Assembly (NCBI RefSeq): GCF_001715975.1
Contig: NZ_MARB01000030.1
Coordinates: forward strand, 1 to 48,372
DNA: 48,372 nt
Reading direction: 5' to 3'
From: Candidatus Thiodiazotropha endolucinida
Lineage (GTDB): Bacteria > Pseudomonadota > Gammaproteobacteria > Chromatiales > Chromatiaceae
The notes below the pieces were generated by a model. It had not been told where the DNA came from. It made no database searches and saw only the letters and a list, made by a program, of their open reading frames with translations. Made by a program: the position numbers and the translations under genes. This document shows positions 3,645-27,640 of the stretch, piece after piece. Positions within the stretch are counted from its first letter, which is position 1. The number at the start of each line of letters is the position of its first letter.

Positions 3645-3656
3645 CTAGGGCCTGTT
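3645..3656 (+). repeat. Dispersed repeat copy (CTAGGGCCTGTT), after parP
   Basis: A short copy of the family consensus; its last base is the first position of the parP stop codon. It diverges after TGTT. Confidence 0.5.
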
Positions 3657-4345
3657 CAGCCGGCGAGCATATTCAAGATCCCGTCAACATCCAGCAACAC
3701 ACTCAACTCCTGTATGATAATACCTGCATACCAGGGTCTTATCCCACTGCCGGAACGCCACCGAACTTCCTCCTTATCCACCATTAGCGTATTGCAGATG
3801 GTGTCTACCGCCAGTGCTCTCTGTCCATCACCGATCAGCAACAGGTGTTGTGGTCTGACAGCGCTACTCTCATCCAATCTTTCCGGCATCAACAATCTGG
3901 CGCTGTTAACGACTACGACCTTTTCTTCCCTGTTGACGATGACGCCCAACGACCAGGCTGGCTGTCCCGGCAATTGACTTGCCTCTCCCGCAAAGGGGAG
4001 TATCCCCCTTAGTGATGAGAGCGGAATCCCCAATTTGATTCCATTCACCTCGAACAACTATACCTGAAACGCATCTTCAACCCAGTCCGGTTTATTGGGC
4101 TCAAGCGAAGTTTCAGCCCCACCGGACGTCGGCTCCGATATTGTTGTCAGCGTAGATTCAGTATGCCTGTCATAGTTGATATCGGCATCGGGCAACGGCT
4201 CTTTAACCTCCACCTGGGGAGGCGTGACCGTCAAATCATCGATCTCTGACAACAGCGTATCGAGATAGCTTTTCAGTGCAGTATCAGGCTCTGCAATCTT
4301 GCTGACCGGCTGCGGCGGCTGAGACTGCCTGACCCGCCGATTCAT
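3656..4345 (-). pseudogene. parP: parP-like gene (CheW-like AIF domain) interrupted by an in-frame amber codon
   Basis: Two frames are in the same phase. Residues 1-95 (4345-4061) form a Pro/Gln/acidic region ending WVEDAFQV, then TAG at 4058-4060, then TTG and LFEVNGIKLGIPLSSLRGIL, a CheW-like domain continuing to 3656. Reading through the stop gives FQV-x-LFEVNG, the expected join of such proteins, where x is probably Leu (TTG to TAG is one substitution). ParP links ParC to the chemosensory array in Vibrio; its C-terminal array-integration domain is CheW-like. The start overlaps parC by 4 nt. Restart at the TTG next to the stop, after the weak site AGGT, could still make the C-terminal domain. 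Alternatives are a sequencing error or amber suppression. Confidence 0.8.
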
Positions 4346-5145
4346 GTGGCGACACCTGCTTGGATTACCGGCTCTTCACCTTCATCGAGCAGGTCGCGCA
4401 ACAATCTTTCATAGGCTGCGACTCCCCGGCTCTGTGGCGCGAACAGTGCCGGTGGAATGCCGGCCTTGCTGGCTTCTCTGAAGAGCGTATCCACCGGGAT
4501 CAGGCTGTGCCAAACACGTCCCGGATAGCTCTCCCGCATCACCCGGAGGCTGTCTATGGATGCCCGGGTACGCCGATCGAACATGGTGGGTACAACAAGG
4601 TATGGCAGAGGCACATGCCTTGATTTCATGACCATTTCCAGGGTGTGCAACATCCTTTCCAATCCCTTGAGGGCGAGAAATTCGGTCTGCACTGGAATGA
4701 TCAGCTGCTCACAGGCCGCCATGGCATTGATCATTAAAACCCCGAGTATCGGCGGACAGTCGAGAATGACATGATCGTATCGGTTCTCCAGTTGAGCCAG
4801 TGCCTGCTTGATCACCAAACCCATGCCATCCAGTTTTCCCGCCTGACGGTCGAGGGTGGCCAGCGCCATCTCCGCGGGCATCAGATCCAGCCCGTCCGTA
4901 CCTGTCGGATAGATCAGGCTGAGGGGATCCACATGGCTTTTTTGCGCCACAGCTTTAAACAGGCTGTAGACACTCTCATCCAATCCATCCGGATCGTAGC
5001 GAAAATAGCTGGTCAGGGATCCGTGTGGATCGATATCCAGCAATAGCGTCCGCATACCCCATTGGGACAACATGCCGCCCAATGAGACGGTGGTGGTGGT
5101 CTTTCCCACCCCGCCCTTCTGATTGGCTACGGTCCAGACCTTCAT
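4342..5145 (-). CDS. parC: ParA-family ATPase of the chemotaxis cluster (ParC/Soj-like)
   Basis: A 267-residue MinD/ParA ATPase. The deviant Walker A motif is VANQKGGVGKTTTTVSL (residues ~6-22), Walker A' is LLLDIDPHGSL and Walker B is HVILDCPPILG. The position between motD and parP matches the ParC family, which sets the cell-pole position of chemotaxis arrays, rather than a chromosome-partition gene, which would pair with parB. It overlaps motD and parP by 4 nt each. It is intact, although its partner parP is interrupted. The symbol follows Vibrio usage and is unrelated to topoisomerase IV parC. Confidence 0.85.
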   Translation of the reverse strand: MKVWTVANQKGGVGKTTTTVSLGGMLSQWGMRTLLLDIDPHGSLTSYFRYDPDGLDESVYSLFKAVAQKSHVDPLSLIYPTGTDGLDLMPAEMALATLDRQAGKLDGMGLVIKQALAQLENRYDHVILDCPPILGVLMINAMAACEQLIIPVQTEFLALKGLERMLHTLEMVMKSRHVPLPYLVVPTMFDRRTRASIDSLRVMRESYPGRVWHSLIPVDTLFREASKAGIPPALFAPQSRGVAAYERLLRDLLDEGEEPVIQAGVAT

Positions 5146-11578: not shown

Positions 11579-12331
11579 TTACTCTTCGTCATGTACCAAT
11601 GAGAGCCAATCCGTCAAACGCGACCGCAAACGCAGTGTGGCCTGACTGTGTATTTGGCAAACCCTGGACTCACTGACACCCAGTACGTGCCCTATTTCAC
11701 GAAGATTCATCTCATCATCGTAATACATGGCAATAACCAGCCGTTCGCGATCAGGCAAACCGGCAATTGCTTCCGCCAATGCCTTCTTGAAGGCATCTTT
11801 CTGCAAACCGTCAAACGGAGTATCTGCTGGCCCATCCCGTGCAACGGGAAAGCCATCACTCACTGCAGTCAACTCATCCAGACTGAATATGCGGCATCCT
11901 GTCGAATCCCGCAGAATCTGGTGATACTCCTCCAGGCTCATGCCCAAGGCCTCGGCCACTTCCACATCACGTGCGTCTCGGCCTTCATTGTTCTCGATTT
12001 CCCTCATCGCCTCTGCAACCATGCGTGCCTTGCGATGAACAGAACGTGGCGTCCAGTCACTGCGCCGGATCTCGTCCAGCATTGCGCCGCGAATGCGGAT
12101 ACCCGCATAGGTCTCAAAACTGGCGCCCTGCGTGGGATCATAGTTTCTACTCGCCTCGAGCAGACCCAGCATCCCCGCCTGAATCAGATCATCCGCCTGA
12201 ACATTCGGTGGCAGCCGGTTCATCAAGTGATAGGCAATCCTTTTCACCAGTCCGGCGTGCTGATCCACCAGATCATCAAAGTTCTGTTGTTGCTGCATGG
12301 CGGTGTATGTCGCTAAACCGCTCACCGTCAT
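11579..12331 (-). CDS. fliA: Flagellar sigma factor FliA (sigma-28)
   Basis: A 250-residue sigma factor with region 2 (LVKRIAYHLM...DDLIQAGMLGLLEASRNYDPTQGASFETYAGIRIRGAMLDEIR), region 3 and a region 4 helix-turn-helix (LREIGHVLGVSESRVCQIHSQA). It directs transcription of late flagellar and chemotaxis genes. Its start overlaps the fleN stop (ATGA), indicating translational coupling. It appears complete. I did not find a clear sigma-28 promoter in the gaps of this locus. Confidence 0.95.
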   Translation of the reverse strand: MTVSGLATYTAMQQQQNFDDLVDQHAGLVKRIAYHLMNRLPPNVQADDLIQAGMLGLLEASRNYDPTQGASFETYAGIRIRGAMLDEIRRSDWTPRSVHRKARMVAEAMREIENNEGRDARDVEVAEALGMSLEEYHQILRDSTGCRIFSLDELTAVSDGFPVARDGPADTPFDGLQKDAFKKALAEAIAGLPDRERLVIAMYYDDEMNLREIGHVLGVSESRVCQIHSQATLRLRSRLTDWLSLVHDEE

Positions 12332-13215
12332 ATCTCCCCGTATTGGCTAGAAAATTGGATCAATCGCTCGACGAAAAACTGCAAATCACCGCTGACACCT
12401 GAGGGTACAGGCCAGTTATCGGCCTTTTTGGCCAAATTCTTGAATGCCTGTGATACCCGTGAGCGCGGATAGGCCTCGACAACGGGCTTTTGACTTCTTA
12501 CAGCTTTCCGCAGTTGTTCGTCATATGGGATGCTGCCCATATAGTTCAGCATAACGTCCAGGTATTGATCGGTTACCCGGCACATTTTATTGTAAAGGTC
12601 CCGCCCCTCCTGCACGCTCTTCACCATATTCGCCAGGATGCGGAAACGACTGATTCCGTGTTCCCGGTTCAGTAACTTGATAATTGCATAAGCGTCCGTG
12701 ATGGATGCAGGCTCATCACATACCACAACAATCTGTTCCTGTGCCGCACGACTGAAACTGATCACCAGATCGGAAATGCCGGCAGCCGTGTCGATCAACA
12801 AAACGTCCACATCATTGGCCACTTCGCTGAAGGCATGGATCAAACCGGCATTCTCGGCGGGTGTCATTTCAGCCATATGCTGGATACCGGAGGCGCCAGG
12901 CACAACCCTCATACCTTTGGGCCCGGTCACCATGACATCTTCCAGAGTGCATTCACCCTGCATGACGTGGGAGAGATTTCGCTCCGCATGCAAACCGAGG
13001 ATCACATCCAGGTTTGCCAGTCCCAGATCGGCATCAAGCAGCATTACCCGACGGCCGAGTTCGGCGAAGGCAACGCCCAGATTGGCTGATATGCTGGTTT
13101 TACCAACCCCCCCTTTACCACCGGTGACCGCAATCACTCTCACTGGTTCCGGGTTGATCATCCTGCGTAATCCTGTCGCCTGATCTTCGATCTGTTCAGA
13201 CATGTGCATAGTCAT
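12328..13215 (-). CDS. fleN: Flagellar number regulator FleN/FlhG (MinD-like ATPase)
   Basis: A 295-residue MinD-type ATPase with the deviant Walker A VTGGKGGVGKTSISANL, LLDADLGLANLDVILG and VLLIDTAAGISDLV. FleN/FlhG limits the number of polar flagella, acting with FlhF and on the master regulator FleQ. The start at 13215 overlaps the flhF reading frame by 20 nt; a second ATG (MSEQIE) lies four codons in. It is intact although flhF is broken, so the count regulator would lack its usual partner. Confidence 0.92.
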   Translation of the reverse strand: MTMHMSEQIEDQATGLRRMINPEPVRVIAVTGGKGGVGKTSISANLGVAFAELGRRVMLLDADLGLANLDVILGLHAERNLSHVMQGECTLEDVMVTGPKGMRVVPGASGIQHMAEMTPAENAGLIHAFSEVANDVDVLLIDTAAGISDLVISFSRAAQEQIVVVCDEPASITDAYAIIKLLNREHGISRFRILANMVKSVQEGRDLYNKMCRVTDQYLDVMLNYMGSIPYDEQLRKAVRSQKPVVEAYPRSRVSQAFKNLAKKADNWPVPSGVSGDLQFFVERLIQFSSQYGEI

Positions 13216-14466
13216 TCATTCCCCCGAAAGCCATCGCCAGATACTCCTCATCTGGACTGCTGCCCATCAGCTCGGACAACTCCACTGCCTGTTTCATCAA
13301 CCTGTCTGCATGGGCGTTTTGAATATCCTCCGGTACCCGCTGACCGTCCGTCACGAAGGCCAGCGGCAGTTTTGCTTCGAGAGCGGCGGACAACACGCCC
13401 CCGAGCGAGGCGGCCTCATCCATCTTGGTCAGGATGACACCAATAGGTTTTACGATATTGAACGCTTGGATTGCATGACTCAGGGCCGAGCGTTGGGTGG
13501 TTGCGGAGAGGGTCAACAAAGAATTAACGGGATGATTACCCTTGTGCAGCAGCGCCAGGCGCTCTGTCAGCTTGAGGTCTCTCTGTCCCATACCGGCGGT
13601 ATCTATCAAAACCAAACGTTTTTCCGCGAAGGCATGCAGGGCATTGTTGAGCTCTTCCGGCGAGGTGACGCTGCGAACCGGCACATCCAGGATTCGACCA
13701 TAGTTTTGTAGCTGCTCCTGAGCGCCGATCCGGTAACTGTCGGCCGAAATCAGGGCGAGATGGCGATTGCCGTGACGCAGGCAGAATCTGGCAGCCAACT
13801 TGGCAATGGTACGCCGGTTGGTCCCACCAACGCTAGGGTGCCGCCTTCATCGAGCAAGTCCTTTTTTATAACCGGTATTTCTGCACCGAGCTGGGTCAAG
13901 GCCTGGCGCCATGCTTGTTCGGGTGTTTCGGCATCTTCCACACGATATGCCAGTTCCTTGCAGTGACCCGTATCCAGTCCCAGTGCCATCAGTCGGCGGA
14001 TTAAATCCTGTGTCTGGGGTCGACGATGCCCAAGGTCGCGCCAAGTCAACTCAGAGAGTTCGTTCTCCATCATCCGACGCAATGCCTGCATCTCCCGGCG
14101 CATCTCTCTCAATACCGGATCCTGACTCCATTCGACCCGGGGCTGCTCCTGTATCGGACTTGATTTGGTGTCTTGATAATCTTGCTTGGGTTTTACAGAT
14201 TGTTCGACATCGCTGCTGGTTGCATAGGCTGTCCTGGCCGCAGCAGACAGGGTCGTGCTGTCTTCAGACAGTGATTGGGATGCGGGTTCGATGGCGGTTG
14301 GCTGGGTAGCATTGAATGCGGATTCGTCATAATCCGCCGCGGCCACCAGCTCTATCCCGCCCTGCACGTTCTTGTTGGAGAGAATGACAGCGTCCGCACC
14401 CAGCACCTCTCGCACCTGGCGCAGAGCCTGCCGCATGTCAGAGGCAAAAAAACGTCGTATCTTCAT
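13196..14466 (-). pseudogene. flhF: flhF with frameshifting deletion through the Walker A motif
   Basis: FlhF is the SRP-type GTPase that recruits the flagellar base to the cell pole. The first frame (14466 to 13750) starts MKIRRFFASDMRQALRQVREV and runs to LALVGPTGV, then goes out of frame. The expected continuation is found in another frame, AKLAARFCLRHGNRHLALIS, then ADSYRIGAQEQL, LIDTAGMGQRD and ILTKMDEAASLGG, ending at 13196. At the join (13810/13811) GGC-GT is followed directly by ACC-ATT-GCC, where the family needs V-G-K-T-T-T-I-A. About 13 nt, encoding G-K-T-T, are missing. This removes the P-loop lysine and shifts the frame, so a restored frame alone would not rescue GTP binding. Confidence 0.88.
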
Positions 14467-14976
14467 AGTCCGCTATCCCCGGCGGTCACTCTGGGTCGAG
14501 CTTGCGCCTGTCAACCTGCCTATCCACTCTCCGGCTTTATTATTACGCTACCGGTCTCAGCCAGTACTGCATTGAAGCCGATCGCTCCCATCAGGGGCTC
14601 AACACAATAACCGCAATAACTGTTCCAATCCTGAACACGTCATGAATGGCAAGATTTTTTACCTTTAATACAACAGGTTGGAAGGACAGCTAGATATAGA
14701 CGCTGTAACGGCGGCGCTCAAGCAGACGCCAGTCTCTTGACTCCCTGCCTCAATCCGCCAAGGATTCGGCACTGCCTGGGTTGTGATTAAGGTTCCTCGT
14801 TCCGATACAGAAAATCGACAGTATCTGGATGGAGCATCGAAGTCACAGCTAACCAATCCGAATATGAGCGAGGCCTGCCCGAACAGTCGGGGTGTATCCG
14901 AGCAGACGCCACATCCCGTAGCGCTCAACGACAATGAACAGGAACAAACAGTCAGTATTGAACAATCAGAGGTGTT
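14467..14976. other. Gene-poor interval upstream of flhF
   Basis: About 510 nt between flhF and the small frame at 14977. Open frames here are short, overlap each other on both strands and have neither recognisable domains nor good ribosome sites. I see no RNA gene or strong hairpin. Confidence 0.5.
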
Positions 14977-15312
14977 TCACCTGGCGTCAGCAATTGCCTG
15001 GGTGACTGTTTTGATTTCAGCTCTCCTGCGATACAGCTCCAGCGATATGACTTTCTGTGGCCGCAGAAATTTCAGGTCAAATTGCGCACCACAGGAAGCA
15101 AGAATGAAGATCAGCGCCTCCGCCCGTTCCCTACTCACCAGTTCCAACGTACACGACTCTCTGTTTAGCAGCGATTCTGCCGCACAGTTTAGCGCCATAC
15201 CCCGCAAACTGGTGCAATGGTAGAGTCTTTGACAGTAATCGAGATGTGACCAGTTATCACGACTCAGCCAGGCACACTCGTCTGACCACCCCTTTATAAT
15301 TAACTTGATCAT
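14977..15312 (-). CDS. Small cysteine-containing protein of unknown function between flhA and flhF
   Basis: A 111-residue frame with AAGGA 8 nt before its ATG. Sequence notes: MIKLIIKGWSDECAWL, a Leu/Cys/Tyr-rich middle (YCQRLYHCTSL) and a basic, helix-like C terminus (LKFLRPQKVISLELYRRRAEI). No signal peptide, membrane helix or known domain is evident. It lies between two operon genes on the operon strand. An antisense frame of similar length (14783-15223) is less convincing. Its reality is uncertain and rests mainly on the ribosome site and strand. Confidence 0.45.
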   Translation of the reverse strand: MIKLIIKGWSDECAWLSRDNWSHLDYCQRLYHCTSLRGMALNCAAESLLNRESCTLELVSRERAEALIFILASCGAQFDLKFLRPQKVISLELYRRRAEIKTVTQAIADAR

Positions 15313-15438
15313 TTGATTAGTCCTTACTGAGGTCGAGCGCCGGCCACCCCTCCAAACGCCACCTCAGATCATGCTCCTGCCGTCACTATCTCATATTCGG
15401 CAGTTGGCAGCCAACTCTGACACCGGCTACGCGCACCC

Positions 15439-17529
15439 TCAATCACCGTTTGCCGTATTACCGATTGTTGTAACCACCTTGATCTGTCGATTGTCGGGTA
15501 TTTCGTTGTAGGAAAGAATATGCATCCCCGGAGCCGCGTGCTTGGCGAAGCGAGCCATCCAGGGCCTGATCGGCGCAGCGACCAAAAGCACACCCTCCTG
15601 CCCATGGGTCTCCATTGCGGCAGTGGTTTCGGAAAGCGCATTCTGTAATCTCTCCGCCAGACCCGGTTCAAATCCCGCCTGCCCCTCTTCAGAAGCCTGT
15701 AGGGTTCTTTGCAGCAGTTGCTCCAGGCTCGGATCCAGCACAGCCACCGGTATCTCCTCAGAACTACCAATCAATTGCTGCACGATACCCCGCGACAGCG
15801 CAACTCGGACAGAAGCCGTCAATGCCGCCGGATCCTGAGTTCTTTGTGACTGCTCCGCCAGTGTTTCTGCAATGGTACGGAAATCCCGGATGGGTACATG
15901 CTCCGTCAGCAGGTTCTGCAAAATTTTAGTCACCACACTCAATGAAAGCGCCTTCGGAACCAGGTCTTCCACCAGTTTCGGTGCGGTCCTGCCCAGCATA
16001 TCCAGCAGCTGCTGTGTCTCTTCATGGCCCATCAGTTCGTTGGCATGGGATTGTAGAATTTCACTCAGATGGGTGGCAACCACGGTACTGGCATCCACCA
16101 CGGTATAACCCAGGGTCTGTGCATGATCCTTCTGATCCGGATCGATCCAGATCGCATCCAGGCCGAAGGTTGGGTCCTTGGTGACCGTACCCTGTAACTC
16201 ACCGAATACCTGTCCTGGATTGATCGCCAACTCACGATCAGGAAAGATATCCGCCAATGCCACAGAGACACCATTGATCGAGATTCGATAGCTGTTGGGA
16301 TTGAGATCAAGATTGTCGCGAATGTGCACCGAAGGGATAAGGAAGCCAATCTCCTGCGAGAGCTTGCGCCTGACACCCTTAATGCGATTCATCAGCTGCC
16401 CGCCCTGATTGCGATCGACCAACGGAATCAGACGATAGCCTACTTCGAGTCCTATCAGATCGACCGGTTGCACATCCTCCCAGCTCAGTTCACGCTGCTC
16501 CGGTTGCTCCACCGGTTCTTCTATGACCGGCTCTTCCACCGGTTTCATCTGACGTTGCCAGATCATCCATGCGCCTGCCGCTGCTGCTGCAGACAGTGTA
16601 AGAAACGCAAAGTTGGGCATTCCCGGAATGATACCCATCAGAAACAGCACTGCTGCCGCTACCGATAACGCCTTGGGACTGCTGAAGAGCTGACTGACGA
16701 TCTGTCCGCCGACATCCTGGCTGCTGGCTACCCGGGTGACAATGATCGCAGCCGATGTGGAAAGTAACAGTGAGGGGATCTGCGCAACCAAACCGTCACC
16801 GATGGTCAGCAGCACATAGTTCTGCGACGCCGTGGAGAAATCAAGCCCGTGCTGGGCCATACCGATGGAGAGACCGCCTATTATATTGATGAAGAGGATC
16901 AGGATCCCGGCGATGGCATCACCACGTACAAACTTACTCGCACCATCCATAGCACCGTAAAAGTCCGCTTCACGGGCGATATCCTCACGCCGTGCCCTGG
17001 CCTCATCCTGATCGATAAGGCCGGAATTGAGGTCGGCGTCGATTGCCATCTGTTTTCCGGGCATCGCGTCCAGGGTGAAACGTGCACTGACTTCAGAGAC
17101 TCGACCCGCACCCTTGGTCACAACCACAAAATTGATGATCACCAGGATCAGGAAGACCACCAGGCCGACAGCATAGTTACCACCAATGACAAAGGCGCCA
17201 AAGGCTTCAATCACTTTACCGGCGGCATCACCTCCGGTATGGCCTTCCAACAGAACCACCCGGGTGGATGCCACGTTGAGGGCAAGACGCAGCAATGTGG
17301 CAATCAGCAGCATGCTGGGAAAAACCGAGAATTCGAGGGGTCGGCGAGTGTAGACCACCACCAGCATCACAACCAGGGATAGGGTGATGTTGAAAGTAAA
17401 GAAAATATCCAATGCAATCGGTGGCAATGGAATCACGATCATCGTCAACAACATCAACAGCATGATTGGCGCACCCAGCCCGCGTGCGCCTGTTTGTCTG
17501 ACATTGTCGAGGATTGCTGTGGCGTCCAT
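15439..17529 (-). CDS. flhA: Flagellar type III export protein FlhA
   Basis: A 696-residue export-gate protein. The N-terminal half has about eight membrane segments and the conserved FHIPEP-like cytoplasmic region (RVSEVSARFTLDAMPGKQMAID then DADLNSGLIDQDEARARRED). The C-terminal half (from ~340) is the cytoplasmic ring domain that binds chaperone-substrate complexes. The length is normal and no lesion is seen. It lies 3 nt downstream of flhB on the same strand. Confidence 0.96.
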   Translation of the reverse strand: MDATAILDNVRQTGARGLGAPIMLLMLLTMIVIPLPPIALDIFFTFNITLSLVVMLVVVYTRRPLEFSVFPSMLLIATLLRLALNVASTRVVLLEGHTGGDAAGKVIEAFGAFVIGGNYAVGLVVFLILVIINFVVVTKGAGRVSEVSARFTLDAMPGKQMAIDADLNSGLIDQDEARARREDIAREADFYGAMDGASKFVRGDAIAGILILFINIIGGLSIGMAQHGLDFSTASQNYVLLTIGDGLVAQIPSLLLSTSAAIIVTRVASSQDVGGQIVSQLFSSPKALSVAAAVLFLMGIIPGMPNFAFLTLSAAAAAGAWMIWQRQMKPVEEPVIEEPVEQPEQRELSWEDVQPVDLIGLEVGYRLIPLVDRNQGGQLMNRIKGVRRKLSQEIGFLIPSVHIRDNLDLNPNSYRISINGVSVALADIFPDRELAINPGQVFGELQGTVTKDPTFGLDAIWIDPDQKDHAQTLGYTVVDASTVVATHLSEILQSHANELMGHEETQQLLDMLGRTAPKLVEDLVPKALSLSVVTKILQNLLTEHVPIRDFRTIAETLAEQSQRTQDPAALTASVRVALSRGIVQQLIGSSEEIPVAVLDPSLEQLLQRTLQASEEGQAGFEPGLAERLQNALSETTAAMETHGQEGVLLVAAPIRPWMARFAKHAAPGMHILSYNEIPDNRQIKVVTTIGNTANGD

Positions 17530-21393: not shown

Positions 21394-22434
21394 TTATTCG
21401 CCATTCGCGTCTTGCACGGCTTTTCTTTCCATTTCCAGATAATCGTGCAGACCTTTGCGCCGATTCTGTTGAATCCAGTTGTTGATCTTCAAGGCATAAC
21501 TGCCATCCGAAACGCCCAATTTAGCTTTGAAGACAGGAACCTCGGCGGCTTCAACATCAACCTGTTCCGGCATTTCGATGGGTATGATGTCCCCCTCTTT
21601 CAACTCAGCCAGTTCTTTGACACTGATCTGCACCTCGGTCAAAATGCTGGAGAGTTCAATCTTCGCAGCCAGGATCTCCTCCTTGAGGGAACGTTCCCAG
21701 CGTTCATCCCGTTCACCTCGATCACTCTGAACGCCCGCATCGAGCAACTCACGTATCGGTTCGAGCATCGAATACGGCATGCAGACATGGAAATCACCAC
21801 CGCCACTCTCCAGATCGACGTGAAAAGATGTCACAACCACCACCTCTGACGGACTCACGATATTGGCAAACTGAGGGTTGACCTCTGAACCGCTGTATTC
21901 GAATTTAACCTGGAAAACTGGTTTCCAGGCGACTTCCAGATCCTCGAATGCTCTGTTCAAAAGGAGTTGAATGACCCGGTTTTCCGTCGGTGTGAAGTCA
22001 CGTCCTTCGATCTTGGTATGGAATCGCCCGGATCCGCCAAAATAGTTATCCACGACACTGAATACCAACTTGGGATCGATCACGAACAGCCCCTTTCCCC
22101 GCAATGGCGGTACCCGGATCATATTCAGGCTGGTTGGGACAAACAGGCTATGCACAAACTCGGAAAACTTCTGCATCTGGATCCCGGATACAGAGAGATC
22201 AGCCGTGCGTCGAAGCATGTTGAAAAGGCTGGTTCGGAACAGACGCGCAAATCGTTCATTGATCATCTCCAACGTAGGCAGACGACCGCGAACGATACGG
22301 TCCTGGCTGGTGAAGTCATAGGAGTTGACACCACCGGCATCGGCCACATCCGTTTCTGTCGCGACATCACCGTTATCGACCCCGTGTAACAGGGCGTCGA
22401 TCTCTTCTTGTGAAAGTAAGTCGTTGGCGCTCAT
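21394..22434 (-). CDS. fliM: Flagellar motor switch protein FliM
   Basis: A 346-residue C-ring protein. Its N-terminal CheY-P-binding peptide is LLSQEEIDALLHGV, its middle domain carries the family stretch MIRVPPLRGKGLFVIDPKLVF, and a SpoA-like domain lies near the C terminus (LTEVQISVKELAELKEGDII). It sets the direction of rotation. It starts 5 nt after the fliL stop. The CheY-binding peptide is intact, consistent with functional CheY and CheZ in the same locus. Confidence 0.96.
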   Translation of the reverse strand: MSANDLLSQEEIDALLHGVDNGDVATETDVADAGGVNSYDFTSQDRIVRGRLPTLEMINERFARLFRTSLFNMLRRTADLSVSGIQMQKFSEFVHSLFVPTSLNMIRVPPLRGKGLFVIDPKLVFSVVDNYFGGSGRFHTKIEGRDFTPTENRVIQLLLNRAFEDLEVAWKPVFQVKFEYSGSEVNPQFANIVSPSEVVVVTSFHVDLESGGGDFHVCMPYSMLEPIRELLDAGVQSDRGERDERWERSLKEEILAAKIELSSILTEVQISVKELAELKEGDIIPIEMPEQVDVEAAEVPVFKAKLGVSDGSYALKINNWIQQNRRKGLHDYLEMERKAVQDANGE

Positions 22435-25391: not shown

Positions 25392-25631
25392 ATGCACCCA
25401 TACTATCCGGCACCATGGCGAGGTATTGAAGGCAACTTCGAATCCCTTCCGACAGACATTAATACCAATCGACCAAAGCGAAGCAATAACGCGCGTATAT
25501 TGATCGCTGATGATGAGCCAAGGGCGAGAGCCAGCCTGAAGGAAATCCTGCGCTTCACAGGTTATGAGACAACACTGGCAGAATGCGGCAGTGAGGCGAT
25601 CGATCTGCTTAATAGCGCAAGCTCGACCTGA
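25392..25631 (+). pseudogene. Receiver-domain fragment, 5' part of a broken response regulator/c-di-GMP gene
   Basis: 79 codons starting MHPYYPAPWRGIEG, then the first half of a receiver domain (ARILIADDEPRARASLKEIL, RFTGYETTLAECGSEAIDLL). They end prematurely at NSASST plus TGA. The second half (LDLNMPDLHGHKVMEHI) continues in a different frame at ~25622. Compared with a normal receiver, the beta3 strand (D-L-V-L-L-D) is missing. A one-base loss near 25616 and a ~15-nt collapse between two copies of a CTCGACCTG-like direct repeat would explain it. The second copy is inferred, not seen. The remnant should not take phosphate. Confidence 0.75.
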
Positions 25632-25633
25632 AT

Positions 25634-27640
25634 ATGCCCGATCTCCATGGACACAAAGTGATGGAGCATATCGATTCTTATCGGTTGAATTGCGATATCA
25701 TCGTTGTTAGCGGCGAAACCACCTTTGACCATGCGACCATGGCACTACGCAAAGGGGCTCAGGACTTTCTGCGTAAACCCTATGCGCCGGACGAGCTGTT
25801 GCGATCTGTCGCCAATGTTCTTGAACGTCGTCAGTTGAAGGCAACAAATCAGTCAATTCAACTGCGGCTTCAGGCGTCCGAGTCCCTCCACAAGTTTATT
25901 GTCAATAATTCACCCGATATGATCTACCTGCTGGATCATGAGGGCAGATTCGCCTTCATAAATGAGCGCGTAAAGTCACTTCTGGGCTACGACCAGAAAG
26001 AAATCATCGGCGAACATTTCAGCAAACTTATTCATACAGAAGATATAGAAAGAGCCCATTTCACATTCAATGAGCGTCGTGCCGGGGAACGCGCCACGCG
26101 TAGCGCAGAACTGAAGTTGAGCAGTAAGAACAATAACGGCAGCCGTTTTTTCGATTCCGGCACTGTACCGGTCGAGTTGAGTTCGATCGGCATATACACA
26201 ACGAATGATGATAAAACCAAGTCATTCATTGGCACCTATGGTGTTGCACGCGATATCTCTGAACGGAAACAGGCCGAAGAACTCATCAAGTATCAGCTCT
26301 ACCACGATCTATTGACCAATCTACCCAATCGCAGCTTGTTCCGCGACCGGTTAAACATGGCCATGGCGCAATCCAAGCGCTCGGGTAAGAAATTGGCAAT
26401 CATGTATCTGGACATGGACCGTTTCAAGATCATCAATGACTCACTCGGTCACTATGTGGGTGATGAGTTACTGAAAATGGTTGGCCAGCGGCTCCGCAGT
26501 GAGTTGAGAGAAGCCGATACCCTCGCCCGCGTCGGTGGTGACGAATTCAATCTGCTTGTACCCGAAATCAATGATATACAGGATGCAAGAAACCTGGCGG
26601 AAAAGATTCTCCGACTGACATTGGAACCCTTTATCATAAAAAACGAGGAAATCTTCATCAGCTTCAGCATCGGCATCTCCATCTATCCCAGTGATGGTGA
26701 CACCAAGGACTCATTGATCAAACATGCCGATATCGCGATGTATAAAGTGAAGAATGCCGGAAAGAACGGTTATGCCTTCTATTCAGAGAAGATGAAGGCT
26801 CACTTCTCGCAATCCCTGGATATTGAGAATGGCTTACGCAAAGCGATCTCAACCAATGAACTATGTCTCTACTATCAACCACAGTTTGATATCAATAACG
26901 GTTATATGAAGGGTGTCGAGGCACTGGTTCGTTGGAAACATCCGGAAAAAGGCACAATCCAACCCAATGAATTTATCAGTGTCGCGGAAGAATCCGGTCT
27001 GATCATACCCCTTGGAGAATGGGTGCTGCGAAGGGCGTGCACGGACATAAAACGCTGGATGGAACAGGAAGGTATCTCATTACAACTTTCGGTAAACATC
27101 TCAATGCAACAACTTGAGATGGATCAGTTTGTAAATAAAGCGCTCAAGATTATCAAGCGGCATCAATTACCGAAAGACACTTTGGAACTGGAGATCACCG
27201 AGCATGCCATTATGCAGGACATGGAGAAAGCGATAGATGCCTTGACCAAGTTATCCCATAAGGGCATACGCATCGCCATCGATGATTTTGGTACCGGCTA
27301 CTCATCGTTGGGCTATCTACAGAATCTGCCAATCAACACCTTGAAGATCGACCGTTCGTTTGTTCAAGGCATCAAAACCTCCGAAGACAACTCTATCATC
27401 GATGCGATTATCGCCATGGCCAAGGGACTCAACCTAAACCTGATCGCCGAGGGCGTGGAAAACCAGACGCAAATCGACCATCTCAGCAGGGCTGGTTGTG
27501 GTTTGGCGCAAGGATTCTTCTACTCTCACCCCGTGCCTGAGGACGAGTTGCTCAAATTTATAAAGTTAAACGGCAACACCAATGGCCAAGACAGCGCGGA
27601 CACGATAGTGTCCTCTGATCACGATCCGTCTTATCAGTGA
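25634..27640 (+). CDS. Truncated-receiver PAS-GGDEF-EAL protein (cyclic-di-GMP turnover)
   Basis: 668 residues if read from the ATG at 25634. Parts in order: the second half of a receiver (MPDLHGHKVMEHI ... SGETTFDHATMALRKGAQDF, with the Lys in LRKPYAP), a PAS domain (~85-210), a GGDEF domain with intact RVGGDEFNLL (~301-305) and an EAL domain with intact VEALVRW (~429), ELEITEHAIM, DDFGTGYSSLGYL and LIAEGVE. Both catalytic signatures look active, so the protein could make or degrade cyclic-di-GMP. The start has no good ribosome site because the gene was originally the 3' part of the frame beginning at 25392. Expression of this part alone is uncertain. Confidence 0.75.
   Translation: MPDLHGHKVMEHIDSYRLNCDIIVVSGETTFDHATMALRKGAQDFLRKPYAPDELLRSVANVLERRQLKATNQSIQLRLQASESLHKFIVNNSPDMIYLLDHEGRFAFINERVKSLLGYDQKEIIGEHFSKLIHTEDIERAHFTFNERRAGERATRSAELKLSSKNNNGSRFFDSGTVPVELSSIGIYTTNDDKTKSFIGTYGVARDISERKQAEELIKYQLYHDLLTNLPNRSLFRDRLNMAMAQSKRSGKKLAIMYLDMDRFKIINDSLGHYVGDELLKMVGQRLRSELREADTLARVGGDEFNLLVPEINDIQDARNLAEKILRLTLEPFIIKNEEIFISFSIGISIYPSDGDTKDSLIKHADIAMYKVKNAGKNGYAFYSEKMKAHFSQSLDIENGLRKAISTNELCLYYQPQFDINNGYMKGVEALVRWKHPEKGTIQPNEFISVAEESGLIIPLGEWVLRRACTDIKRWMEQEGISLQLSVNISMQQLEMDQFVNKALKIIKRHQLPKDTLELEITEHAIMQDMEKAIDALTKLSHKGIRIAIDDFGTGYSSLGYLQNLPINTLKIDRSFVQGIKTSEDNSIIDAIIAMAKGLNLNLIAEGVENQTQIDHLSRAGCGLAQGFFYSHPVPEDELLKFIKLNGNTNGQDSADTIVSSDHDPSYQ

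Follow-up and report, generated by a model that had tools for sequence, protein, structure and literature searches.

The flhF locus and its deletion

The window analysed here, a stretch of 48,372 nucleotides, is contig C30 of a draft assembly (hereafter G000) of 4.49 Mb in 55 contigs, with a completeness of 100 and a contamination of 0.06. Its minus strand carries genes in the order flhA-flhF-flhG-fliA (Table 1), where flhA and fliA are named by eye and flhG is named by its place together with its matches to MinD-type families. The proteins FlhF and FlhG set the place and number of flagella. Pairwise alignments with relatives locate a deletion at the flhF P-loop, between window bases 13810 and 13811. 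A sequence-only reading had described the loss of about 13 nt at this site with a shift of the downstream frame, and the alignments agree, as the missing sequence is exactly 13 bp relative to the nearest relatives, G004 and G020, and both flanks match closely. The same 13-bp gap appears in alignments to G021, G002 and G005, which makes five relatives that show it. The gap cannot slide in either direction, which means that there is no repeat at its ends and that it is not a simple repeat collapse.

Table 1. Features of the window considered here, with window positions, strand and the basis on which each was assigned.
Feature	Position	Strand	Basis
parP-like gene, C-terminal CheW domain, internal TAG at codon 96 of 229	3656..4345	-	PF01584, ORF comparison
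parC-like gene (ParA-family ATPase), intact, adjoins the parP-like gene	4342..5145	-	named by eye
fliA, intact, downstream in operon order	11579..12331	-	named by eye; no indel relative to relatives
flhG (fleN), intact, overlaps the former flhF stop, next in operon order	12328..13215	-	MinD/ParA-type families; named by place
flhF 3' part, rest of SRP54-type GTPase domain, out of frame, still conserved	13196..13810	-	PF00448 (1.3e-31)
13-bp deletion junction at the P-loop (G1 motif)	13810..13811	-	alignments, P-loop scan of relatives
flhF 5' part, 219 native and 19 wrong-frame codons, premature stop	13750..14466	-	ORF, TIGR03499
flhA, intact, upstream of flhF	15439..17529	-	named by eye; no indel relative to relatives
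REC-PAS-GGDEF-EAL gene, 16-bp deletion near 25617-25621 inside the REC domain	25392..27640	+	alignment, domain search

The deletion leaves two ORFs, 13750-14466 and 13196-13798. The frame that opens at 14466 now has 238 codons and stops at 13750; its first 219 codons are native and the last 19 foreign. Neither ORF gives a full-length match to TIGR03499 above its cut-off of 174.15 (the 5' ORF scores 138.4 bits over residues 1-219 and the 3' ORF 94.6 bits), which makes this flhF a broken member of its family. The P-loop motif GxTGxGKT is absent here and is kept in the flhF of every relative that was fetched. Sequence for an SRP54-type G domain is still present in the DNA (PF00448, 1.3e-31, in the 3' part) but is not joined to the 5' part. 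The earlier statement that the P-loop lysine is lost is therefore right as to the absence of the P-loop and understates the effect, since the frame shift removes the whole GTPase (G) domain.

The spacer between flhA and flhF (window 14467-15438, about 970 bp) is 93.6% identical in G004 and G020, and in G015 it shows 70-73% identity over two parts. A 111-aa ORF within it (14977-15312) matches no Pfam or NCBIfam family at a threshold of 0.001, and a scan upstream of flhF for sigma-54 promoter patterns gave three loose matches only.

flhF in related genomes

A search of 40 genomes at E <= 0.001 gave flhF matches in 31, the source genome included. In the 21 other genomes of the genus the gene is open in every case (427-494 codons, no stops), and the 19 whose flhF was fetched (L003-L021; the fetched set leaves out G013 and G014) all keep the motif GPTGVGKT. 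It also occurs in 14 of 14 further flhF loci (L022-L035), from genomes that partly overlap with the 19; G000's own flhF copies lack it. The comparison with related genomes that the sequence-only reading had proposed thus bears out a lesion peculiar to one genome, as flhF is broken solely in G000 among the genomes searched. By flhF the nearest relatives are G004 and G020, which are about 94-97% identical over aligned blocks of more than 3 kb, and the relatives as a whole are Ca. Thiodiazotropha and other symbionts of lucinid clams. The 14 in which the flhF 3' part was matched comprise eight Ca. Thiodiazotropha, five Ctena orbiculata/Stewartia floridana gamma proteobacterium symbionts and one Chromatiales bacterium. 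Among the titles and abstract openings covered by a literature search, no report of a broken flhF in this genus was found.

No second flhF was found elsewhere by an SRP54 family search of the organism's own genome. The four matches are two full-length SRP-type GTPases, which we take by their length to be FtsY and Ffh, flhF itself and one weak match.

Other lesions and the state of the motility genes

What the sequence-only reading missed is that flhF is one of several genes broken in this assembly. Compared with G004 and the outgroup G015, G000 also carries lesions in fleQ, in the parP-like chemotaxis gene and in the REC-PAS-GGDEF-EAL gene, where the 16-bp deletion falls just 5' of the REC domain's likely phosphorylation site. 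The fleQ gene, on contig C14, has a 1-bp insertion near position 22180. The G004 protein contains PF06490 (FleQ), a sigma-54 domain and HTH_8 (a Fis-type HTH), and the G000 frame stops at 377 codons, before HTH_8, so that it lacks the three-domain arrangement of FleQ and is a broken member of that family. The searches for fleQ and the parP-like gene took in 15 other genomes of the genus, from among the 21 with flhF. Over essentially the full match fleQ is open in 14 of the 15, and in the other, G011, the match stops at contig base 66. The parP-like gene is likewise open in 14 of the 15, and its internal TAG is seen solely in G000; the fifteenth genome, G014, gave no match. G014 belongs to the same genus, has a genome of 2.6 Mb in which flhF and fleQ are open, and is perhaps a reduced lineage. 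The ParP-type CheW-like C-terminus lies beside the parC-like ATPase gene, and PF01584 is found both on the G004 protein and on the part of the G000 gene that follows the stop. In Vibrio, ParP is reported to tether chemosensory arrays to the pole and to have an N-terminal region that binds ParC (PMC5706961).

The extent of such damage was gauged by comparing ORFs of at least 130 aa between G000 and G004 over the window, contig C1, and parts of C14 and C21 that were picked for holding fliF and flagellin. Nine of 312 matched G004 ORFs were flagged as broken in G000, and six were kept: flhF, the parP-like gene, the REC-PAS-GGDEF-EAL gene, fleQ, a YSC84-like gene with a stop, and an iron-sulfur protein on C1 with a one-base lesion in a run of C. 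The remaining three were dropped, as they lay close to ORF starts or within an over-extended ORF. The reverse comparison flagged 4 of 310 G000 ORFs in G004, none of them convincing when judged by eye only. A PEPCK-like gene of G004 that is mostly missing in G000 (about 1.5 kb, C14 about 17670) was found outside the ORF filter. For contig C2, 175 G004 ORFs were matched, 5 of which carried flags in G000, and one lesion was kept, an internal stop at about 25% of the length of an RND-like transporter gene (C2 about 223680). The reverse comparison for C2 flagged 8 of 180, of which six were judged unconvincing and two are one-base frame shifts in G004 (its C1, about 2945200 and 2936700) in genes read as glyS and ntrB. 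Since glyS should be essential, these frame shifts are probably sequencing errors in G004.

With G015 ORFs as the query over two motility regions, 67 were matched in each genome, giving no flags in G004 and four in G000 (the parP-like gene, flhF, the REC-PAS-GGDEF-EAL gene and fleQ). G004 compared with G020 gave 2 flags in 82, and 1 in 81 in reverse, all in ORFs judged over-extended or antisense. Throughout, genes without a family accession were named by eye, and rows were dropped by eye where flags lay near an ORF start or end, in antisense or over-extended ORFs, or at contig ends. The rows dropped on C2 include three G004 ORFs with partial matches and another, of 376 aa with a stop at 32%, whose status as a gene is doubtful; among the small ORFs dropped is one of 132 aa beside an flhB2-like gene, and a long G004 ORF (615 or 570 aa) over an lpd-like gene was taken as over-extended rather than as a lesion. 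When L082:8000-13000, on C1 of G000, was compared with G004, a repeat of about 270 bp matching both strands was seen at dozens of places in G004 (86 matches, many of which count both strands or fragments of a single copy), and it is possibly a miniature mobile element.

The motility genes were listed by eye (n = 51) and each was checked against G004. Forty-seven end within one codon of the end of the G004 frame and have no internal stop, and fliQ, which is open and 100% identical to G004 over 91 residues, brings those that look intact to 48. The three that do not are fleQ and flhF, which end early, and the parP-like gene with its internal stop. Indels near fliQ and stops in the start regions of flgB and fliJ either miss the genes or precede their probable start, and all three genes were counted as intact. 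Broken genes thus number 3 of 51 in motility and 5 of about 436 among other matched ORFs (Fisher p 0.04), with rough denominators in that some of the 51 are shorter than 130 aa, the PEPCK-like gene is not among the matched ORFs, and the figure of 436 (312 plus 175 less 51) includes some ORFs that are not genes. The five non-motility lesions are those of the REC gene and of the YSC84-like, PEPCK-like, iron-sulfur and RND-like genes. When flhF is left out as the starting point, the motility count becomes 2 of 50 and p rises to 0.16. The distribution suggests that the lesions may be concentrated on motility.

There is no sign of relaxed selection on the G000 branch in 28 motility segments or in 15 others. 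The motility segments have 61 non-synonymous and 294 synonymous changes on the G000 branch (omega 0.065), and 63 and 252 on the G004 branch (omega 0.078; p 0.37), while the non-motility segments have omega values of 0.081 and 0.100, respectively (p 0.32). For flhF alone, where changes are few, the counts are 3 non-synonymous to 11 synonymous, against 1 to 11 on the G004 branch (omega 0.087 and 0.029, p 0.60). These few changes, and the protein identity of about 99% to G004 in both halves, sustain the earlier view that the deletion is recent and its flanks conserved. As the other motility genes look intact and no relaxed selection is seen where it was looked for, the damage appears to be recent, and the motility genes were under normal constraint until lately. 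The same result fits a young loss, and it would fit sequence errors too.

Origin of the lesions and expected phenotype

We propose that flhF is probably a recent loss-of-function pseudogene, one of several lesions that mark early motility decay in a host-associated bacterium. With the 13-bp deletion, translation would yield no more than the N-terminal B/N region followed by a few wrong residues, and the GTPase domain would be missing. The deletion would be one of several recent lesions in a Ca. Thiodiazotropha-like lineage, of which three affect motility genes (flhF, fleQ and the parP-like gene), and the outcome would be the loss of normal polar flagellation, and probably of flagella, as the first stage of motility decay. 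Such a case is probably one of common early motility loss and not a new system. Counting against the proposal are the lesions outside motility and the weakness of the excess within it, given the two p values above.

We infer that the lesions exist in the organism, and not in the assembly alone. An artefact, with an intact flhF in the organism and with lesions that are errors or else alleles carried by the minority of a mixed population, is in our view quite unlikely. It would fit a draft in 55 contigs, and one-base lesions occur even in the reference, G004. However, deletions of 13 and 16 bp and stops made by substitution would in our judgement be unusual assembly errors, the long contigs C1 (298 kb) and C2 (275 kb) have a single accepted lesion each, that on C1 in the run of C, and the completeness and contamination values speak against it also. 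Doubt of this kind bears most on fleQ, since its lesion is one base and G004 also carries one-base differences that may be errors. If fleQ is truly intact and its insertion an assembly error, the loss of flhF would be an isolated one, with flagella still built but fewer and misplaced. In keeping with this, no damage is apparent in flhG, fliA or the other structural genes, and a clean flhF deletion in Pseudomonas putida leaves one or two flagella that are often subpolar or lateral (PMC6424431). We regard an isolated loss as unlikely, as the 16-bp deletion and the parP-like stop, which is a substitution, are of a different class from one-base indels and share the contig with flhF. In addition, the premature stop lies upstream of flhG and fliA and may be polar, so that it could depress both of them; in P. 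putida, a transposon inserted in flhF had a polar effect on fliA, and flagella were gone (PMC6424431). It is highly improbable that the two halves of flhF still yield a working protein by re-initiation or ribosomal frameshifting. The 3' part is still conserved and opens with a TTG start codon at 13798, but the P-loop codons are gone from the DNA, and hence neither route could restore nucleotide binding; moreover, the genus's 21 other genomes show no such split.

Under the pseudogene reading, the phenotype depends on fleQ. The expectation of mislocated or fewer flagella, as drawn from flhF alone, matches the clean P. putida deletion, but here fleQ, the loss of which gives non-motile P. putida cells (PMC5026340), also appears to be broken. 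If fleQ is truly broken, an absence of flagella becomes likelier than their misplacement, and we consider absent flagella at least as likely as mislocated or fewer ones. The predicted cell has no proper polar flagellum, and it lacks flagella altogether if the fleQ insertion is real.

A more specific order of events can be put forward only tentatively, and we think it unlikely: motility loss would begin with failure of the control and placement layer (fleQ, flhF, the parP-like gene and perhaps the c-di-GMP enzyme), with structural genes still intact and under purifying selection. Symbionts of this genus are generally regarded as being acquired anew from the environment, and a symbiont that has to find a new host presumably relies on flagella to get there. 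Loss in this order, if true, would point to a recent turn to a more host-bound or non-swimming life. A lineage that had only just lost flagellar control, set beside close relatives that retain it, would lend itself to a natural paired comparison of when and why swimming is given up by symbionts. For now the case consists of one assembly with unconfirmed lesions, and motility decay is a well known phenomenon in host-associated bacteria, including this genus.

The known systems offer parallels at several levels. The FlhF of polar flagellates, an SRP-type GTPase (TIGR03499, PF00448), is matched here in its N-terminal part and in the remaining G-domain sequence, but with the P-loop deleted and the frame shifted no full-length FlhF is possible. 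The gene order flhA-flhF-flhG(fleN)-fliA is that reported for P. putida (PMC6424431), and the P. putida flhF and fleQ mutants (PMC6424431, PMC5026340) have lost the same genes and supply the expected phenotypes, although they are laboratory-made and this is a natural genome with several lesions. Among related symbionts, those of Ctena orbiculata are reported to express flagellum-related genes (PMC6712303) and the Ca. Thiodiazotropha lineage 'Aeq1' to have lost flagellar biogenesis (PMC9938160), and thus both conditions occur. 'Aeq1' shares the genus by name and has lost the motility function; however, its genome is given as 2.9-3.2 Mb (PMC9938160), compared with 4.49 Mb here and 48 of 51 motility genes that look intact. 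Further afield, flagellar regulators or genes were lost by indels and deletions, as here, in Campylobacter jejuni (PMC7677240) and Xanthomonas fuscans (PMC3826837), and in a table for Xanthomonas flhF has the entry "not recorded" for some of the genomes (PMC3826837). Both are cases of motility loss by scattered mutations. In C. jejuni the loss arose on serial passage and affected rpoN, flgS and flgR instead (PMC7677240), and in X. fuscans it involved a large deletion (PMC3826837), so that these are other organisms that have lost motility mainly through genes other than those broken here.
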